Assembly: GCA_900315745.1 (NCBI GenBank)
Contig: ONAG01000006.1
Coordinates: 1 to 64,000 of the forward strand
DNA: 64,000 nucleotides
Direction: 5' to 3'
DNA from: an uncultured Prevotellaceae bacterium
GTDB lineage: Bacteria; Bacteroidota; Bacteroidia; Bacteroidales; Bacteroidaceae
Positions 1,560 through 14,646 of this stretch are shown here, piece by piece; the first letter of the stretch is position 1, and each line of letters opens with the position of its first letter. Both the position numbers and the translations under genes were made by a program. Below the pieces are notes generated by a model. That model was not told where the DNA came from. It saw only the letters and a program-made list of their open reading frames with translations, and did no database searches.

Positions 1560-2726
1560 TCATTTCACCAAATATTCCTCAATGCCTTTGTTGTGCTTTG
1601 AAAACAGGTCGCGTGTGTTCTTTAGGTAGGTCTCGCGCTTTGTGCGCTCTGTGGTGGTCATTCCATCCGTGGGATAGCTGGCAGGATATACTACATAGCC
1701 GTGCTTGTTGTTGGAAAGAGGGGGCCTCGACACCCAATATAGGTTGTAGCCACAGTCTGTGAGGATGGTCTTTCCACCTTGTTTGGTAAGTGTCATTCTC
1801 ACCATTGTGCCACCATCTGTGTTGGGGCGAGACTGGTTGCTTACGAAATTGCCCAATGAATAGGCAAGCAGGTGTTTCCCGTCTTCGCCTTCGCGCACTT
1901 CTATCGGTTCCACCACATGGGGGTGACCGCCTATTATGTGGTCCACACCTTTCTCAAACAGCCAATTGGCAAGGTCGCGTTGACCTTGGTTGGGCAATAA
2001 CTTGTATTCATCACCCCAGTGTGGCATGCAGATGATGACATCTGGATTTAGCGACTTGGCTTTGGCTATGTCCTGGGCTATAATGGTGGTATCTATCAGG
2101 TTCACGATATAGGGCTTGGGCACAGGGATGCCATTGGTGCCGTAAGTGTAGTTGAGAAGGCAGATGCGTATGTTGTTGTGTTCGATGACAAAGGGATAGA
2201 GGCTGTCGCGCTCAGCTTGATTGCGATAGGTGCCAAGGTGTTTTGCACCGAGCGAGTCCATCATCGTGATGGTGCGGTCGATGCCTCGTCCGTATGTATC
2301 TACGCTGTGGTTGTTGCAGGTGGTCAGTACGTCAAAGCCACAGTCGATGGCGGCTTGCAGGTACTTGTCTGGTGCGCAAAATTGGGGGTAGCCCTTGTAG
2401 GGGGGACCGCCAAGGGTTACTTCAAAATTGGCAATGGCGATGTCTGCGCGTTGTATCTCGGGTGCCATGAGGTCGAACACTCCACTGTAGTCGTATGTGC
2501 CGTTTGGTCGGGCGGCGGACTGCACTTGACCTATGTGTTGCATTAGGTCGCCACCAAACAATAGTGTTACAGTATGTTTTTTGTCATTTTCCTGGGCTAT
2601 GCTATCGGTACTTGTGGCACTGCCTCCTTGGGCATTGCCCGTGCAGCAGCTGCATGTTATTGCAAGTATTAGCAGGCTGATTTCGCGAAAGCGTCTCGTA
2701 AGATTGATGCGTTTTTCTTCTCTCAT
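1560..2726 (-). CDS. CapA family protein (PGA_cap metallophosphatase-like)
   Basis: The 388-residue product begins at the ATG at 2726; an in-frame ATG 30 bases further upstream lies on top of the -7 box and is rejected. A short N-terminal hydrophobic stretch (SLLILAITCSCC) with several cysteines suggests export and possibly lipid anchoring. The body matches the CapA / PGA synthesis family: FGGDLMQH near the start, IANFEVTLGG, TCNNHSVDTYGRG, CMPHWGDEY and GGHPHVVEPIE. These Asp, Asn and His motifs are those of the calcineurin-like metallophosphoesterase fold. In Bacillus the family is needed for poly-gamma-glutamate capsule attachment. No capBC genes are nearby, so the role here is unknown and probably concerns the cell envelope. 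It is transcribed alone, diverging from hsp20. Confidence 0.85.
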   Translation of the reverse strand: MREEKRINLTRRFREISLLILAITCSCCTGNAQGGSATSTDSIAQENDKKHTVTLLFGGDLMQHIGQVQSAARPNGTYDYSGVFDLMAPEIQRADIAIANFEVTLGGPPYKGYPQFCAPDKYLQAAIDCGFDVLTTCNNHSVDTYGRGIDRTITMMDSLGAKHLGTYRNQAERDSLYPFVIEHNNIRICLLNYTYGTNGIPVPKPYIVNLIDTTIIAQDIAKAKSLNPDVIICMPHWGDEYKLLPNQGQRDLANWLFEKGVDHIIGGHPHVVEPIEVREGEDGKHLLAYSLGNFVSNQSRPNTDGGTMVRMTLTKQGGKTILTDCGYNLYWVSRPPLSNNKHGYVVYPASYPTDGMTTTERTKRETYLKNTRDLFSKHNKGIEEYLVK

Positions 2727-2753
2727 GTTGAGTGGATTGTTGGTTTGTTGTGG

Positions 2754-2761
2754 CAAAGTTA
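2754..2761 (-). promoter_or_regulatory. -7 element of the CapA-family gene
   Basis: The minus strand reads TAACTTTG, a consensus TAnnTTTG box. Transcription would begin near 2748, giving a leader of about 22 nt before the ATG at 2726. A TTTG -33 box is not obvious. Confidence 0.55.
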
Positions 2762-2899
2762 GGCAATAATCTTGATATTTCGTTCCTTATGGCAAAAAAA
2801 CACATTAAAAATAAGTGTCATACCTTTCATATAAATGAAATTCTATGAAGACAATTGTTTGGAATACATCATTATGTGAATAATTTATCATTTGATTTG

Positions 2900-2925
2900 T
2901 GACATTATGTCATGCGTATATGACA
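2900..2925 (+). promoter_or_regulatory. Overlapping palindromes upstream of the hsp20 sigma-54 promoter
   Basis: Two inverted repeats overlap: TGACATTATGTCA (2900-2912, perfect) and TGTCAT-N6-ATGACA (2908-2925). They lie about 50-75 bases upstream of the predicted transcription start. Sigma-54 promoters need an upstream-bound AAA+ activator, which normally binds dyad sites of this kind, so these are candidate upstream activating sequences. A further TGTCAT lies at 2816-2821 and a short dyad (TTTCAT-N4-ATGAAA) at 2825-2840. The activator itself is not in the window. Confidence 0.45.
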
Positions 2926-2945
2926 AAACGGCATTGTTTTTACTC

Positions 2946-2962
2946 TTGGCACGTGTGTTGCA
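2946..2962 (+). promoter_or_regulatory. Sigma-54 (RpoN) promoter of hsp20
   Basis: The sequence TTGGCACGTGTGTTGCA matches the -24/-12 consensus (TTGGCACG, N4, TTGCA). The GG at 2948-2949 and the GC at 2960-2961 are separated by exactly ten bases, as sigma-54 requires. Transcription should start about twelve bases past the GC, near 2973, leaving a leader of about 72 nt before hsp20. No TAnnTTTG box for the primary sigma factor is seen between here and the gene. Confidence 0.8.
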
Positions 2963-3030
2963 TATAGTTAGACGAACGCAAGTCATAACTGAAGCGTTTT
3001 CAACAACGATTATTACAATTAACAAATAAT

Positions 3031-3037
3031 AGGAGGT
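3031..3037 (+). promoter_or_regulatory. Unusually strong Shine-Dalgarno site of hsp20
   Basis: AGGAGGT lies eight bases before the ATG at 3045. Most genes in this window have A-rich leaders with no clear Shine-Dalgarno sequence, as is typical of the phylum. The site fixes the hsp20 start and suggests high translation after stress. Confidence 0.7.
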
Positions 3038-3044
3038 ATAAATT

Positions 3045-3470
3045 ATGAGAACTATGCATGGAAATTATTGGTTGCCAGAATTATTCAACGACTTGATGAA
3101 TGTAGGTATTCAAGCAACAAAACCTTGTACCACGGCACCAGCAACCAATGTTATGGAAAACGACAACATGTATATCGTAGAGCTGGCCGCTCCCGGGCTG
3201 AAGAAGGAGTATTTCTTCGTCAACATCAACGACGAGGGCAATCTCGTAATCAAGATGGAACAAAAAGACGACGAGAAAAAGGATAATGAAAAGACGCACT
3301 ACTTGCGCCGTGAGTTCTCCTACACCAAATATGAGCAGACGCTTATCTTGCCTGATGATGTGGACAAGGAGAAGATAGAGGCTAAGGTTAGCGACGGTAT
3401 TCTCACCGTCAATCTTCCTAAGATTGAAGAGACAAAGGTGAAAGTTGCTCGTTCCATACAAATAAACTAA
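3045..3470 (+). CDS. Small heat shock protein, Hsp20 / alpha-crystallin family
   Basis: The 141-residue protein is an ATP-independent holdase chaperone of the alpha-crystallin family, acting in the cytoplasm on unfolding proteins. The alpha-crystallin domain covers about residues 35-135, starting at TNVMENDNMYIVELAAPGLKK and including LRREFSYTKYEQTLILPDDVD. The diagnostic GILTVNLPK motif follows near residue 120, and a short C-terminal tail ends in IQIN, which resembles the I-x-I anchoring motif. The start is fixed by the AGGAGGT ribosome binding site. It is a single-gene unit with its own sigma-54 promoter and a strong terminator. Control by sigma-54 rather than a heat-shock sigma factor is inferred from the promoter. 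Confidence 0.93.
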   Translation: MRTMHGNYWLPELFNDLMNVGIQATKPCTTAPATNVMENDNMYIVELAAPGLKKEYFFVNINDEGNLVIKMEQKDDEKKDNEKTHYLRREFSYTKYEQTLILPDDVDKEKIEAKVSDGILTVNLPKIEETKVKVARSIQIN

Positions 3471-3516
3471 TTGCCAAGAATATAAGCGGAGAAGGCAAAT
3501 GGGTTGATTTACAATG

Positions 3517-3549
3517 ACGGCTCTCAAGAACGAGAGCCGTTTTTTTTGT
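3517..3549 (+). terminator. Intrinsic terminator of hsp20
   Basis: A perfect nine-base stem (ACGGCTCTC / GAGAGCCGT, loop 3526-3531) is followed at once by a run of seven T. It ends the hsp20 transcript and insulates gpmI. Confidence 0.9.
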
Positions 3550-3586
3550 TTCTTGGCGATTAAAAACAGCGATAATTCAAAAATAG

Positions 3587-3618
3587 TTCGTCACTTATCA
3601 AATAATTGCGTAACTTTG
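3587..3618 (+). promoter_or_regulatory. Promoter of gpmI
   Basis: TTCG (3587-3590), a 20-base spacer and TAACTTTG (3611-3618) match the Bacteroidota -33/-7 arrangement. Transcription would start near 3624, about 88 bases before gpmI. Confidence 0.6.
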
Positions 3619-3711
3619 CAACGGAATTGATACAAGTATTCGGATAAAGATTGAGATTCTTGAAAACTTGTTTATCAAGGATAACCATTCAATACAATTA
3701 TAATAGAAAAT

Positions 3712-5226
3712 ATGGCAAAGAAAGCTTTACTCATGATACTCGACGGATGGGGTATCGGAGAGCATGGCGAGGGTGATGTCATCTTCAGAACACCTACGCC
3801 TTATCTTGATTATTTGAACGCTGTAAGCCCACACTCTAAACTCGATGCTTCAGGTGAGGATGTTGGTCTGCCTGATGGACAGATGGGTAACTCGGAGGTG
3901 GGACACCTAAACATTGGCGCAGGACGCGTGGTTTATCAGGACCTGGTGAAAATCAACCGTGCATGCCGCGACAATTCCATAATGAAAAATCAAGAGGTCG
4001 TTAGAGCCTACTCGTATGCCAAGGAAACAGGAAAAAGGCTGCACCTCATGGGGCTTACCTCCAACGGTGGCGTGCATTCTTCGCTTGACCATCTCTTCAA
4101 ATTGGTGGAAATAAGCAAGGAGTATGGATTGAAAAACACCTTTGTACACTGTTTCATGGACGGACGTGACACCGACCCGAAAAGCGGTATCGGATTCATC
4201 GAGCAGCTGACTGAAGTATGCGAGAAAAACGATGCTGCCATCGCATCAATCGTGGGACGATTCTATGCGATGGACCGAGACAAGAGATGGGAAAGGGTGA
4301 AGGAGGCTTATGACCTGCTTGTTGAAGGCAAGGGAAATCAAGCTGAAGACATGGTGAAGGCTATGAAGGATAGCTACGAGGCAAATGTGACCGACGAGTT
4401 TATCAAACCTATAAACAATTCGAAGGTGGATGGTACCATACAAGAAGGGGATGTGGTGATTTTCATCAACTTCCGCAATGACCGCGCAAAAGAACTTACC
4501 ACCGTGCTCACACAGCAAGACATGCCGGAGGCTGGCATGCATACCATTCCCGGACTGCAATATTTCTGCATGACTCCTTATGATGCCAACTTCAAAGGGG
4601 TGCATGTGCTTTTCCCCAAGGAGAATGTGGAAAATACTCTTGGGGAGTATTTGTCAAAACTCGGAAAGAAACAACTACACACTGCAGAAACCGAGAAGTA
4701 TGCACACGTCACTTTCTTCTTCAATGGTGGGCGTGAAGCTCCTTTCGAAAAGGAAGACCGTATATTGGTGCCCTCTCCAAAGGTGCCTACCTATGACCTC
4801 AAGCCTGAAATGAGTGCATACGAGGTGAAGGACAAGCTTGTTGGGGCTATAAAGACCGAACAATATGATTTCATCGTGGTGAATTTCGCCAATGGTGACA
4901 TGGTGGGACACACAGGTGTGTATAATGCCATAGCAAAGGCCGTATGGGCTGTTGACAACTGCGTGAGAGAAGTGGTGGAAGCTGCAAAAGCTGCTGATTA
5001 TGAGGTTATCATTATTGCTGACCATGGTAATGCAGACAATGCCATCAACCCTGATGGCACACCAAATACCGCACACTCCCTCAATCCTGTGCCTTTCATC
5101 TATGTCACAAACGACAACAATGCACGCGTGAAAGACGGACGACTGGCAGATGTGGCTCCTTCAATCTTGCATATCATGGGATTGGAGAAACCGCAAGACA
5201 TGACTGGAGATAATTTGATTTTCTGA
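3712..5226 (+). CDS. gpmI: 2,3-bisphosphoglycerate-independent phosphoglycerate mutase
   Basis: The 504-residue enzyme interconverts 3- and 2-phosphoglycerate in glycolysis and gluconeogenesis in the cytoplasm. It uses two Mn ions and a phosphoserine intermediate. The N-terminal metal motif DGWG is at residues 11-14 and the catalytic serine is Ser61 in GNSEVGH. The inserted transferase domain carries [11 protein letters not shown] and FINFRNDRA. The C-terminal metal-binding part has [12 protein letters not shown] and ADHGNAD, followed by [10 protein letters not shown]. All expected ligands are present and the length is normal for the family. It has its own promoter. A 31-base hairpin without a T run separates it from ung. 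Confidence 0.97.
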
Positions 5227-12627: not shown

Positions 12628-14646
12628 TTATGCATCAATGTTGGCGTATGTGGCATTGGCCTCAATGAATTCTCGTCTTGGCTCCACATCGTCTCCCATT
12701 AGCATTGAGAAAATCTCGTCTGCCTCGGCGGCATTTTGAATGCTTACCTGACGCAATAGCCGCTTTGAGGGGTCCATGGTAGTATCCCACAGCTGTTCGG
12801 GGTTCATCTCGCCAAGACCTTTGTAGCGCTGGGTGTGGATGCTGGAGTTCTCCTTGCCCTCTCCATACTTGTCGAGGAATGCTTGCCGTTGCTGTTCTGT
12901 ATAGCAGTATTCCTTCACTTTGTTCTTGTACGTGCATAGGTAGAGTGGTGGAGTGGCTATGTAGAGGTGGCCTTCTTGTATCACCTTGGGCATAAATCGG
13001 TAGAATAATGTCATGATGAGGGTGTCGATGTGTGAGCCATCGACATCGGCATCGGTCATGATGATGATCTTGTCATAACGCAACTTGTCTATGTTGGCTT
13101 CTTTGTCGCCTTCTCCATCCACGCCAAATCTTACACCGATGCTTTGTATGATGTTCATCACCGACTCGCTTTCGAACACTTTGTGCCACATCACTTTCTC
13201 CACATTCAGAATCTTGCCACGAAGAGGAAGAATGGCTTGGGTGTACCTGTCACGACCTTGTTTTGCAGAGCCACCAGCAGAGTCGCCCTCCACAAGGAAT
13301 ATCTCGCATTCTTTCGGGTCCTTGTTTGAACAGTCTGCCAACTTGCCTGGCAAACCTCCACCCGACATCACGTTCTTTCGCTGGACGCTTTCACGTGCCT
13401 TGCGTGCGGCTATGCGTGCCGTGGCTGCCAGAACCACCTTGTCGCATATTTGCTTGGCTTCCTTGGGATGCTCTTCCAAATAGAAGGAAAGGGCTTCGCC
13501 TACTGCTTGTTGAACGGCACCTGCCACCTCGCTATTGCCCAATTTGGTTTTCGTCTGACCTTCAAATTGAGGTTCTGCCACCTTGATGGATATCACGGCG
13601 GTCAAACCTTCACGGAAGTCTTCACCCGTAATCTCTATCTTCGCCTTCTCTATTTGCTTTGAAATGACCGGGTCGTTGTCGGCATATTTCTTCAGCGTGC
13701 GAGTCAGTGCCATGCGGAAACCCTGCAAGTGGGTGCCGCCTTCTATGGTGTTGATGTTGTTAACATAAGAGTGTATGTTTTCTGAATAGTCTGTGTTGTA
13801 CATCACTGCCACTTCGATGGGTATGCCTTGCTTTTCTGTCTTCAGGTAGATGACGTCGTTAAACAGGTGGGTGCGATGGCGGTCGATGAATCTGACAAAT
13901 GCCTTCAGACCATCCTTGGCATGGAACACTTCTTCGCGTGTGTCGCCATTCTCGTCGGGACGAAGGTCGCGGAGCGTGATGGTGATGCCTGCATTGAGGT
14001 ATGCCAACTCGCGCATGCGGCGGGCTATGATGTCATACTGATATACTGTAGTGGTGAATATGGTCTTGTCGGGCCAAAATTGCTGGCGGGTGCCTTGACG
14101 GTCGGTTTCTCCAACTACCTTTACAGGATACAATGGCTTGCCACACTCGTATTCTTGTTGATATATCTTGCCATCTCGGAATACTTGAGACATCATGTGT
14201 GATGACAATGCGTTTACGCAACTTACGCCCACGCCATGGAGACCACCACTAACTTTATAGGAGCCTTTGTCAAATTTGCCACCTGCATGGAGAACCGTCA
14301 TTACCACTTCCAATGCCGATTTATGAAGTTTCTTGTGCTCATCCACTGGAATACCACGACCGTTGTCTTGCACTGTAATCGAGTTGTCTTCGTTGATGGT
14401 CACCTCAATGTGTGTGCAGTAGCCTGCCATTGCTTCATCGATGGAATTGTCCACAGTCTCGTTTACCAAATGGTGCAGACCTTTCTCGCTAATATCACCA
14501 ATATACATGGCTGGGCGTTTGCGAACGGCTTCCAAGCCTTCAAGCACCTGAATGTTTTTTGCAGAATAATTGCTTTCTGGGTTTTGTATTTCTGGCATTT
14601 TTTTGTTGTTTTTGTGGCCCACCGAGTCGCTTTTTGCCATCAGCAT
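12628..14646 (-). CDS. gyrB: DNA gyrase subunit B
   Basis: The 672-residue protein is the ATPase subunit of gyrase, which with GyrA introduces negative supercoils. The GHKL ATPase starts with NIQVLEGLEAVRKRPAMYIG, then has NETVDNSIDEA, DNGRGIPV and GGLHGVGVSCVNALS. The TOPRIM domain has EGDSAGGSAKQGRDR and MTDADVDGSHI. The C-terminus has TQRYKGLGEMNPEQLW. The start at 14646 follows AGGAAAT at a good distance; the ATGs at 14640 and 14598 are alternatives. The TTG at 14703 lies inside the -7 box and is excluded. GyrA is not in the window. The gene order gyrB, rpsT, tRNA-Glu, recO is usual in the phylum. Confidence 0.96.
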   Translation of the reverse strand: MLMAKSDSVGHKNNKKMPEIQNPESNYSAKNIQVLEGLEAVRKRPAMYIGDISEKGLHHLVNETVDNSIDEAMAGYCTHIEVTINEDNSITVQDNGRGIPVDEHKKLHKSALEVVMTVLHAGGKFDKGSYKVSGGLHGVGVSCVNALSSHMMSQVFRDGKIYQQEYECGKPLYPVKVVGETDRQGTRQQFWPDKTIFTTTVYQYDIIARRMRELAYLNAGITITLRDLRPDENGDTREEVFHAKDGLKAFVRFIDRHRTHLFNDVIYLKTEKQGIPIEVAVMYNTDYSENIHSYVNNINTIEGGTHLQGFRMALTRTLKKYADNDPVISKQIEKAKIEITGEDFREGLTAVISIKVAEPQFEGQTKTKLGNSEVAGAVQQAVGEALSFYLEEHPKEAKQICDKVVLAATARIAARKARESVQRKNVMSGGGLPGKLADCSNKDPKECEIFLVEGDSAGGSAKQGRDRYTQAILPLRGKILNVEKVMWHKVFESESVMNIIQSIGVRFGVDGEGDKEANIDKLRYDKIIIMTDADVDGSHIDTLIMTLFYRFMPKVIQEGHLYIATPPLYLCTYKNKVKEYCYTEQQRQAFLDKYGEGKENSSIHTQRYKGLGEMNPEQLWDTTMDPSKRLLRQVSIQNAAEADEIFSMLMGDDVEPRREFIEANATYANIDA

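Follow-up and report, generated by a model that had tools for sequence, protein, structure and literature searches.

What controls the small heat-shock gene at this locus, and which protein would act at its promoter? The gene lies at 3045-3470 on the forward strand of the window, by which the whole stretch of 64,000 nucleotides that was analysed is meant. Its open reading frame (141 aa) was assigned to the Hsp20 family with PF00011 (73.4 bits, curated cut-off 20.8). An earlier note, made from the sequence alone, had described a strong ribosome binding site and a strong terminator, and both are present: the Shine-Dalgarno sequence AGGAGGT (3031-3037, + strand) was read directly, and the intrinsic terminator (3516-3547, + strand) consists of a 10-pair stem (3516-3541) followed by a run of T. 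The divergent gene upstream encodes a PGA_cap protein (scanned as 1560-2726), and genes for a phosphoglycerate mutase and a uracil-DNA glycosylase are found downstream. At the edge of the window, positions 1-1420 resemble by eye a minus-strand coding sequence with imperfect repeats.

A sigma-54 promoter of the form TGGCACG-N4-TTGCA (-24/-12) was read from the sequence at 2947-2962 on the + strand, 82 nt ahead of the gene start at 3045, and it is conserved in orthologues. The bases are as the earlier note had described them: TTGGCACG occupies 2946-2953 and TTGCA occupies 2958-2962, the GG (2948-2949) and the GC (2960-2961) are 10 nt apart (GG-N10-GC), and both TGGCAY and TTGC are matched. Because of this spacing of 10 nt, the transcript is expected to start near 2973 (+ strand). 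Within the window the exact pattern TGGCACG-N4-TTGCA was found once, and the number of matches with up to two mismatches (6, versus 7.9 in shuffles) is not above chance. In the source genome as a whole (4.59 Mb, 166 contigs, 93% complete), TGGCACGNNNNTTGCW (TGGCACG-N4-TTGCW) has exactly two exact matches, the window promoter and C73:47705-47720, each ahead of an hsp20 gene. With up to one mismatch allowed, 62 matches were obtained, versus 35 for the reversed control pattern.

Conservation was examined in the best 30 hsp20 matches, window included, from a set in which 136 of 150 genomes have a match. At least 9 of the 12 consensus positions are present upstream of hsp20 in 28 of these 30 loci, several of the 9/12 sites being only marginal against shuffles (0.03-0.11). 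The best upstream boxes of the other two (L031, 7/12; L019, 8/12) are indistinguishable from shuffles, and the 12-position consensus scan gave no recognisable sigma-54 promoter upstream of L031. The gene rpoN, on which the RpoN control proposed in the earlier note depends, is present in the source genome. A coincidental -24/-12 match, with hsp20 served instead by a vegetative or ECF promoter or by an RNA thermometer, is very improbable given the 28 conserved loci and the confinement of the exact genome-wide matches to hsp20.

Direct scans for such alternatives gave the same picture. The box TAnnTTTG, described as the vegetative -7 box of F. psychrophilum in the main text of PMC9723704, is absent from the + strand between 2700 and 3044. 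Weak sigma-70-like matches do exist: a scan for E. coli-type promoters over 2700-3720 gave 4 sites, one of which (2939-2968, 9/12) overlaps the sigma-54 element, but their number is not above shuffles (mean 3.6). Neither scan supports a vegetative or E. coli-type promoter for hsp20, which was rejected, and the earlier statement that no primary-sigma promoter is visible stands. A ROSE-type or other RNA thermometer was likewise rejected: the leader has no Rfam match at gathering score, and in a predicted single-sequence fold 4 of the 7 Shine-Dalgarno bases are unpaired, the remaining 3 being paired in weak helices. A short hairpin near the 5' end of the transcript could be counted in favour of such a thermometer. 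It is predicted directly after the -12 box (window 2963-3010) and recurs in many hsp20 leaders whose sequences differ widely; it is possibly a 5' stabiliser, for which no claim is made because RNAalifold gave no consensus pair on the hsp20 leaders.

Directly upstream of the -24 box, the orthologue alignment contains two TGNCA-N3-TGNCA dyads, about 21-22 nt apart. In the window the distal operator dyad TGACATTATGTCA (2900-2912, + strand, centre about -67) was read directly and aligned with 26 other hsp20 promoters; the proximal operator dyad TGACAAAACGGCA (2921-2933, + strand), centred near -46, leaves a gap of 13 nt to the -24 box. The distance between dyad and box was determined for 29 hsp20 promoters of the genus (the 30 loci with the window, L031 left out), which had been selected by gene and promoter box and not by dyad. 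In 27 of them a dyad with at least 7 of the 8 fixed bases precedes NGG by 11-13 nt; 0.06% of shuffled upstream regions carry a dyad at 12-14 nt.

A sequence-only profile, R1, was built from 27 hsp20 promoters, including 2 rows from the source genome; its alignment omits L012 and L014 for their unusual spacing, L024, in which no dyad was seen, and L031. In the source genome its top matches lie at three hsp20 genes and at clpB. Weaker matches stand 50-80 nt before dnaK (17.0 bits) and htpG (13.7 bits), with scores no higher than those of some intragenic matches (C83, 17.4 bits; C128, 13.7 bits). The end of the dnaK dyad lies 24 nt from the TGG, and the htpG and clpB dyads have 6 and 7 of the 8 bases, respectively. 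The clpB promoter was counted twice by R1 because two contig ends overlap: it stands at both in opposite orientation (G000:C26:1-110 and G000:C48:1-70), as in an assembly overlap or a repeat end.

In the genus, R1 gave a match at E<=0.001 in 110 of 120 genomes, the other 10 having the activator gene described below and no such match. Twenty R1 regions, hand-picked as having no hsp20 listed, were assigned to clpB (13), groES (2), a NUDIX/NrtR-like gene (1), a DUF2971 gene (1) and, in three cases, to hsp20 after all. The matches before the NUDIX/NrtR-like regulator gene (L333) and the DUF2971 gene (L336) mark possible non-chaperone targets. In the order, 38 of 199 genomes, the source genome included, have an R1 match. 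Among the 29 loci fetched, 22 belong to groES (6), htpG (8), dnaK (2), clpB (1) or hsp20 (5), one to rsfS-ftsH and one to a META-domain gene that is followed by groEL at a distance of about 0.8 kb; five (L158, L162, L164, L172, L175) have no assigned chaperone. Two of these, L158 and L162, match the dyad part of R1 only, and the gene behind the L162 match resembles an M16 peptidase by eye.

For the phylum a broader profile, R2, was prepared from 30 sites of this order, five promoters of the source genome (three hsp20, clpB and htpG) among them. Matches at E<=0.003 were found in 52 of 296 genomes. The 28 newly fetched loci, each the best of its genome, comprise dnaK (10), hsp20 (7), htpG (6), grpE (2) and clpB (1), 26 in all; L199, which repeats the source genome, and L220, which repeats an order-level locus, were not counted. 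No chaperone gene was identified at L225 and L227. The hsp20 promoter thus appears, from these profile searches, to be part of a Bacteroidota set of chaperone promoters with one common DNA operator. The sigma-54 promoter claimed for hsp20 is borne out; it is not peculiar to that gene, which is one member of a chaperone regulon. In E. coli, the small heat-shock gene ibpB has a sigma-54 promoter, and hsp20 resembles it in both respects, although ibpB belongs to another phylum.

The spacing was also counted in a wider set of 104 promoters, partly chosen with the dyad in the profile. In 74 of them the gap to the nearest dyad is 12-13 nt; in 4 it is larger by roughly one helical turn (22 or 24 nt), and in 10 the nearest dyad stands at another distance. 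The remaining 16 lack a dyad at 7/8 bases. Since R1 and R2 contain the dyad, the spacing in profile-selected sites is partly conditioned. The count omits the sites whose box the regular expression did not accept, namely L031, 12 clpB sites, 7 groES clusters and 5 phylum sites; for L014, L016, L018 and L019 the expression was relaxed manually.

Sigma-54 promoters need an AAA+ activator, and the source genome has one clear match to PF00158, the family of sigma-54 activators (EBPs), at 219 bits. Six other matches reach at most 34 bits with partial domain coverage, one of them (C48) inside the clpB gene; matches to this family occur in all 14 control genomes. The EBP (407 aa) is encoded at G000:C84, and the next gene is lptE. 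Its AAA+ domain begins at residue 13 and a Fis-type HTH (PF02954) occupies residues 365-403, the layout of a bEBP lacking a sensor, with the AAA+ domain at the N-terminus and the Fis HTH at the C-terminus. Between the two, about residues 276-310 are strongly conserved and are followed by a variable linker in 18 genus sequences; 20 EBP regions had been picked by hand, and L180, L184 and L186 were excluded from the alignment (A3). The GAFTGA loop reads GSFTGA in 14 of the 18 rows, GAFTDA in 2 (source genome and L190), GAYTGA in 1 and GAFTGA in 1. Conservation of the promoter, the presence of rpoN and the single clear EBP in a genome 93% complete strongly support RpoN control and, with it, the AAA+ activator that the earlier note had deduced.

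PspF is an EBP that starts at the AAA+ domain, has no N-terminal sensor and represses its own gene. The EBP of the source genome shares with it the AAA+ domain at the start and the absence of an N-terminal sensor. It differs from PspF in its score against TIGR02974 (268.4 bits, far below the cut-off of 443.55), in the conserved stretch and variable linker before the HTH, and in its likely targets, which are chaperones. None of the cut-offs of the 25 NCBIfam families listed, PspF included, was reached.

The surroundings of the EBP gene were compared in 80 named loci. The gene lptE follows on the same strand in 77 of them. Downstream, again on that strand, groES is found in 33 loci, 2.9-5.8 kb from the EBP start, and groEL in 32. 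In L265, examined in detail, the gene order is miaB, EBP, lptE, an ORF with no match in Pfam, secG, groES, groEL. Of the 24 R2 matches with E<=0.1 in the 80 loci, 21 have their end 33-80 nt ahead of groES; such a site is present in 21 of the 33 groES clusters and absent from 12. In L304 an R2 site (12840-12882) marks the beginning of a ClpB/ClpC-like ATPase ORF that directly follows an ORF which by eye is SecG-like; the ATPase ORF occupies the place that groES has in other genomes. The set of chaperone promoters is probably served by one activator protein without a sensor domain.

The strongest concentration of exact dyads in the 80 loci was found upstream of the operon of the EBP itself. Counted in 250-nt bins, the dyads peak at 1.5-1.75 kb ahead of the EBP, where 25 were found among the 73 loci that cover this bin, every other bin holding at most 9; the next-highest bins lie 2.75-3.25 kb downstream (6 and 9 dyads), near the groES start in many clusters. 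The zone of enrichment, 1.5-1.9 kb upstream, corresponds to the miaB start in L265. Upstream of the EBP, 31 of 72 loci have an exact dyad a short way ahead of a TAnnTTTG box, versus 3 of 1178 control windows, and in 21 of these 31 loci the gap measures exactly 18 nt; with 7/8 bases allowed, the counts are 35 of 72 and 13 of 1178. These loci are not independent, since most belong to Flavobacteriia or their kin. Within 600 nt of the EBP gene, 3 of 78 loci have an exact dyad, which is about the background level (2.9%). In the genus a degenerate dyad, TGNCANNNTTGCA, precedes TAnnTTTG ahead of the EBP in 10 of 21 cases. A pattern of this type was not matched before the EBP in the source genome, where the gene has only the degenerate dyad TGACAAAATTGCA before TAATTTTG.

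By its position the dyad sits where a bound protein would block the operon promoter. Autorepression by the EBP would be the simplest reading: the protein would limit its own level through the dyad over the -33 region of the vegetative promoter of its operon. A vegetative promoter on the miaB side of this operon is not confirmed in F. psychrophilum.

The dyads might also be the operator of another regulator, for instance a repressor, at promoters that are sigma-54 dependent and activated by the EBP without binding to the dyads. We regard this as improbable. Classical EBP sites lie near -80 to -150, and the dyad is unusually near the -24 box for an enhancer; it also lies over a vegetative promoter, as expected of a repressor site, and the lptE-linked EBP was not found in 3 of the 120 genus genomes (G175, G200, G216), although these three have sites; they may have assembly gaps or use another factor. 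Against it weigh the enrichment of the dyad upstream of the EBP's own operon, the C-terminal Fis-type HTH of the EBP, and the nearly constant spacing between dyad and -24 box among the genus hsp20 promoters. We favour an EBP that would bind the TGNCA-N3-TGNCA dyads directly upstream of the promoter and act at a fixed distance, not from a remote enhancer.

CIRCE is a dyad operator common to chaperone promoters, and HrcA is a repressor of vegetative promoters. The operator described here resembles the HrcA/CIRCE system in being a dyad common to chaperone promoters; it differs in that hrcA was found in 0 of the 76 genomes sampled from the source class (own 1, family 2, class 73; the source genome being 93% complete). 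HrcA is present in 170 of the 296 phylum genomes, i.e., in 170 of the 220 outside this class. R2 sites were detected in 38 of the 76 genomes inside the class and in 14 of the 220 outside it; set against HrcA, this contrast is suggestive only, because the training sites of R2 come from this order and bias it towards the class. Co-occurrence of rpoN and the sites was discarded as evidence; it is uninformative because rpoN is present in all 296 sampled genomes.

Sigma-54 promoters at chaperone genes of Bacteroidota are, as a class, already published, as far as the available text of two papers goes (PMC9723704, PMC12316311). The sigma factors listed for F. psychrophilum in the main text of PMC9723704 are a primary factor, a sigma-54 factor and seven ECF factors. 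Transcript starts preceded by a sigma-54 motif (SM4) were mapped there ahead of groESL, lon, dnaK, grpE-dnaJ, htpG and clpB. As here, sigma-54 promoters serve chaperone genes, and a sigma-54 regulator gene followed by lptE stands in the same table; unlike here, the main text is without the word hsp20 (PMC9723704). The same main text assigns sigma-54 promoters to gliding motility and many exported-protein genes as well, leaves the activator open among three PF00158 proteins, and lists the promoter of the EBP-LptE genes in another class, SM5 (PMC9723704); one activator therefore need not serve all promoters. The terms palindrom-, inverted repeat and upstream activ- were not found in that main text (PMC9723704). 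In the available text of a PSSM survey, predicted sigma-54 promoters are enriched before the genes of IbpA (COG0071), GroES, GroEL, GrpE, DnaK and DnaJ in Bacteroidota and before that of HSP90 in Bacteroidia (PMC12316311). The survey agrees with the present work in placing sigma-54 at chaperone genes and differs from it in that it predicts promoters (PMC12316311). The operator, its fixed spacing, the assignment of the activator and the dyad of the EBP operon were not found in print in open-licence papers (without supplements), titles and starts of abstracts. In the literature found, chaperone control in Bacteroidota, a major phylum of gut, soil and sea, is not settled; the evidence from sequence points to one class of promoter, an operator, a regulon and just one candidate for the activator.

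Taken together, sigma-54, the lptE-linked EBP, the TGNCA-N3-TGNCA operator and the chaperone regulon probably explain the control of hsp20. Sigma-54 RNA polymerase would transcribe the gene from 2947-2962, activated by the 407-aa bEBP encoded elsewhere (G000:C84, followed by lptE). In the source genome the same bEBP would drive clpB and also, though the evidence is weaker, dnaK and htpG; in relatives it would drive groES and grpE, and perhaps rsfS-ftsH, which was seen once. It would be an example of a sigma-54 activator that lacks a sensor domain and whose binding site is fixed and very close, and so relevant to polymerase contact and to activator switching.

The earlier note had tied the chaperone, through such an activator, to a specific signal. 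The activator is supported; the signal is not straightforward, because the one clear EBP has no N-terminal sensor domain. For the same reason a switch by a partner is proposed: the bEBP would be kept inactive by a chaperone or a client-titrated partner, perhaps docked on the conserved stretch at about residues 276-310 between AAA+ and HTH, and released as unfolded protein accumulates. Chaperone titration is speculative and held tentatively, and is nevertheless our preferred model of the switch. The main rival, which concerns the signal alone and is otherwise compatible with the sigma-54/EBP/operator reading, is an activator of envelope stress, by which chaperones would be induced within an outer-membrane response and not by cytoplasmic unfolding. 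The presence in the EBP operon of lptE (in those 77 loci) and of secG (cluster of L265) fits it, but the products behind the detected sites are nearly all cytoplasmic chaperones, and we consider it rather unlikely.

For the source class (presumably Bacteroidia) we lean slightly towards a general form of the preferred reading, in which the core heat-shock response would run through sigma-54 and one sensorless activator at a fixed, promoter-adjacent operator, the activator using that operator also to autorepress its operon miaB-EBP-lptE-secG, often with groESL behind it. If true, this would be a third main heat-shock architecture in bacteria, beside sigma-32 and HrcA/CIRCE, with an activator placed at one helical phase beside the polymerase in place of long-range looping.

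In two of the loci excluded from the EBP alignment, L184 (870-2600, - strand) and L186 (259-1989, + strand), the EBP and the downstream sequence form one open frame of 577 aa. The Pfam domains of the EBP and LptE are both present in the L184 frame. These frames are either a fusion of the regulator with an outer-membrane lipoprotein or the result of a missed stop.
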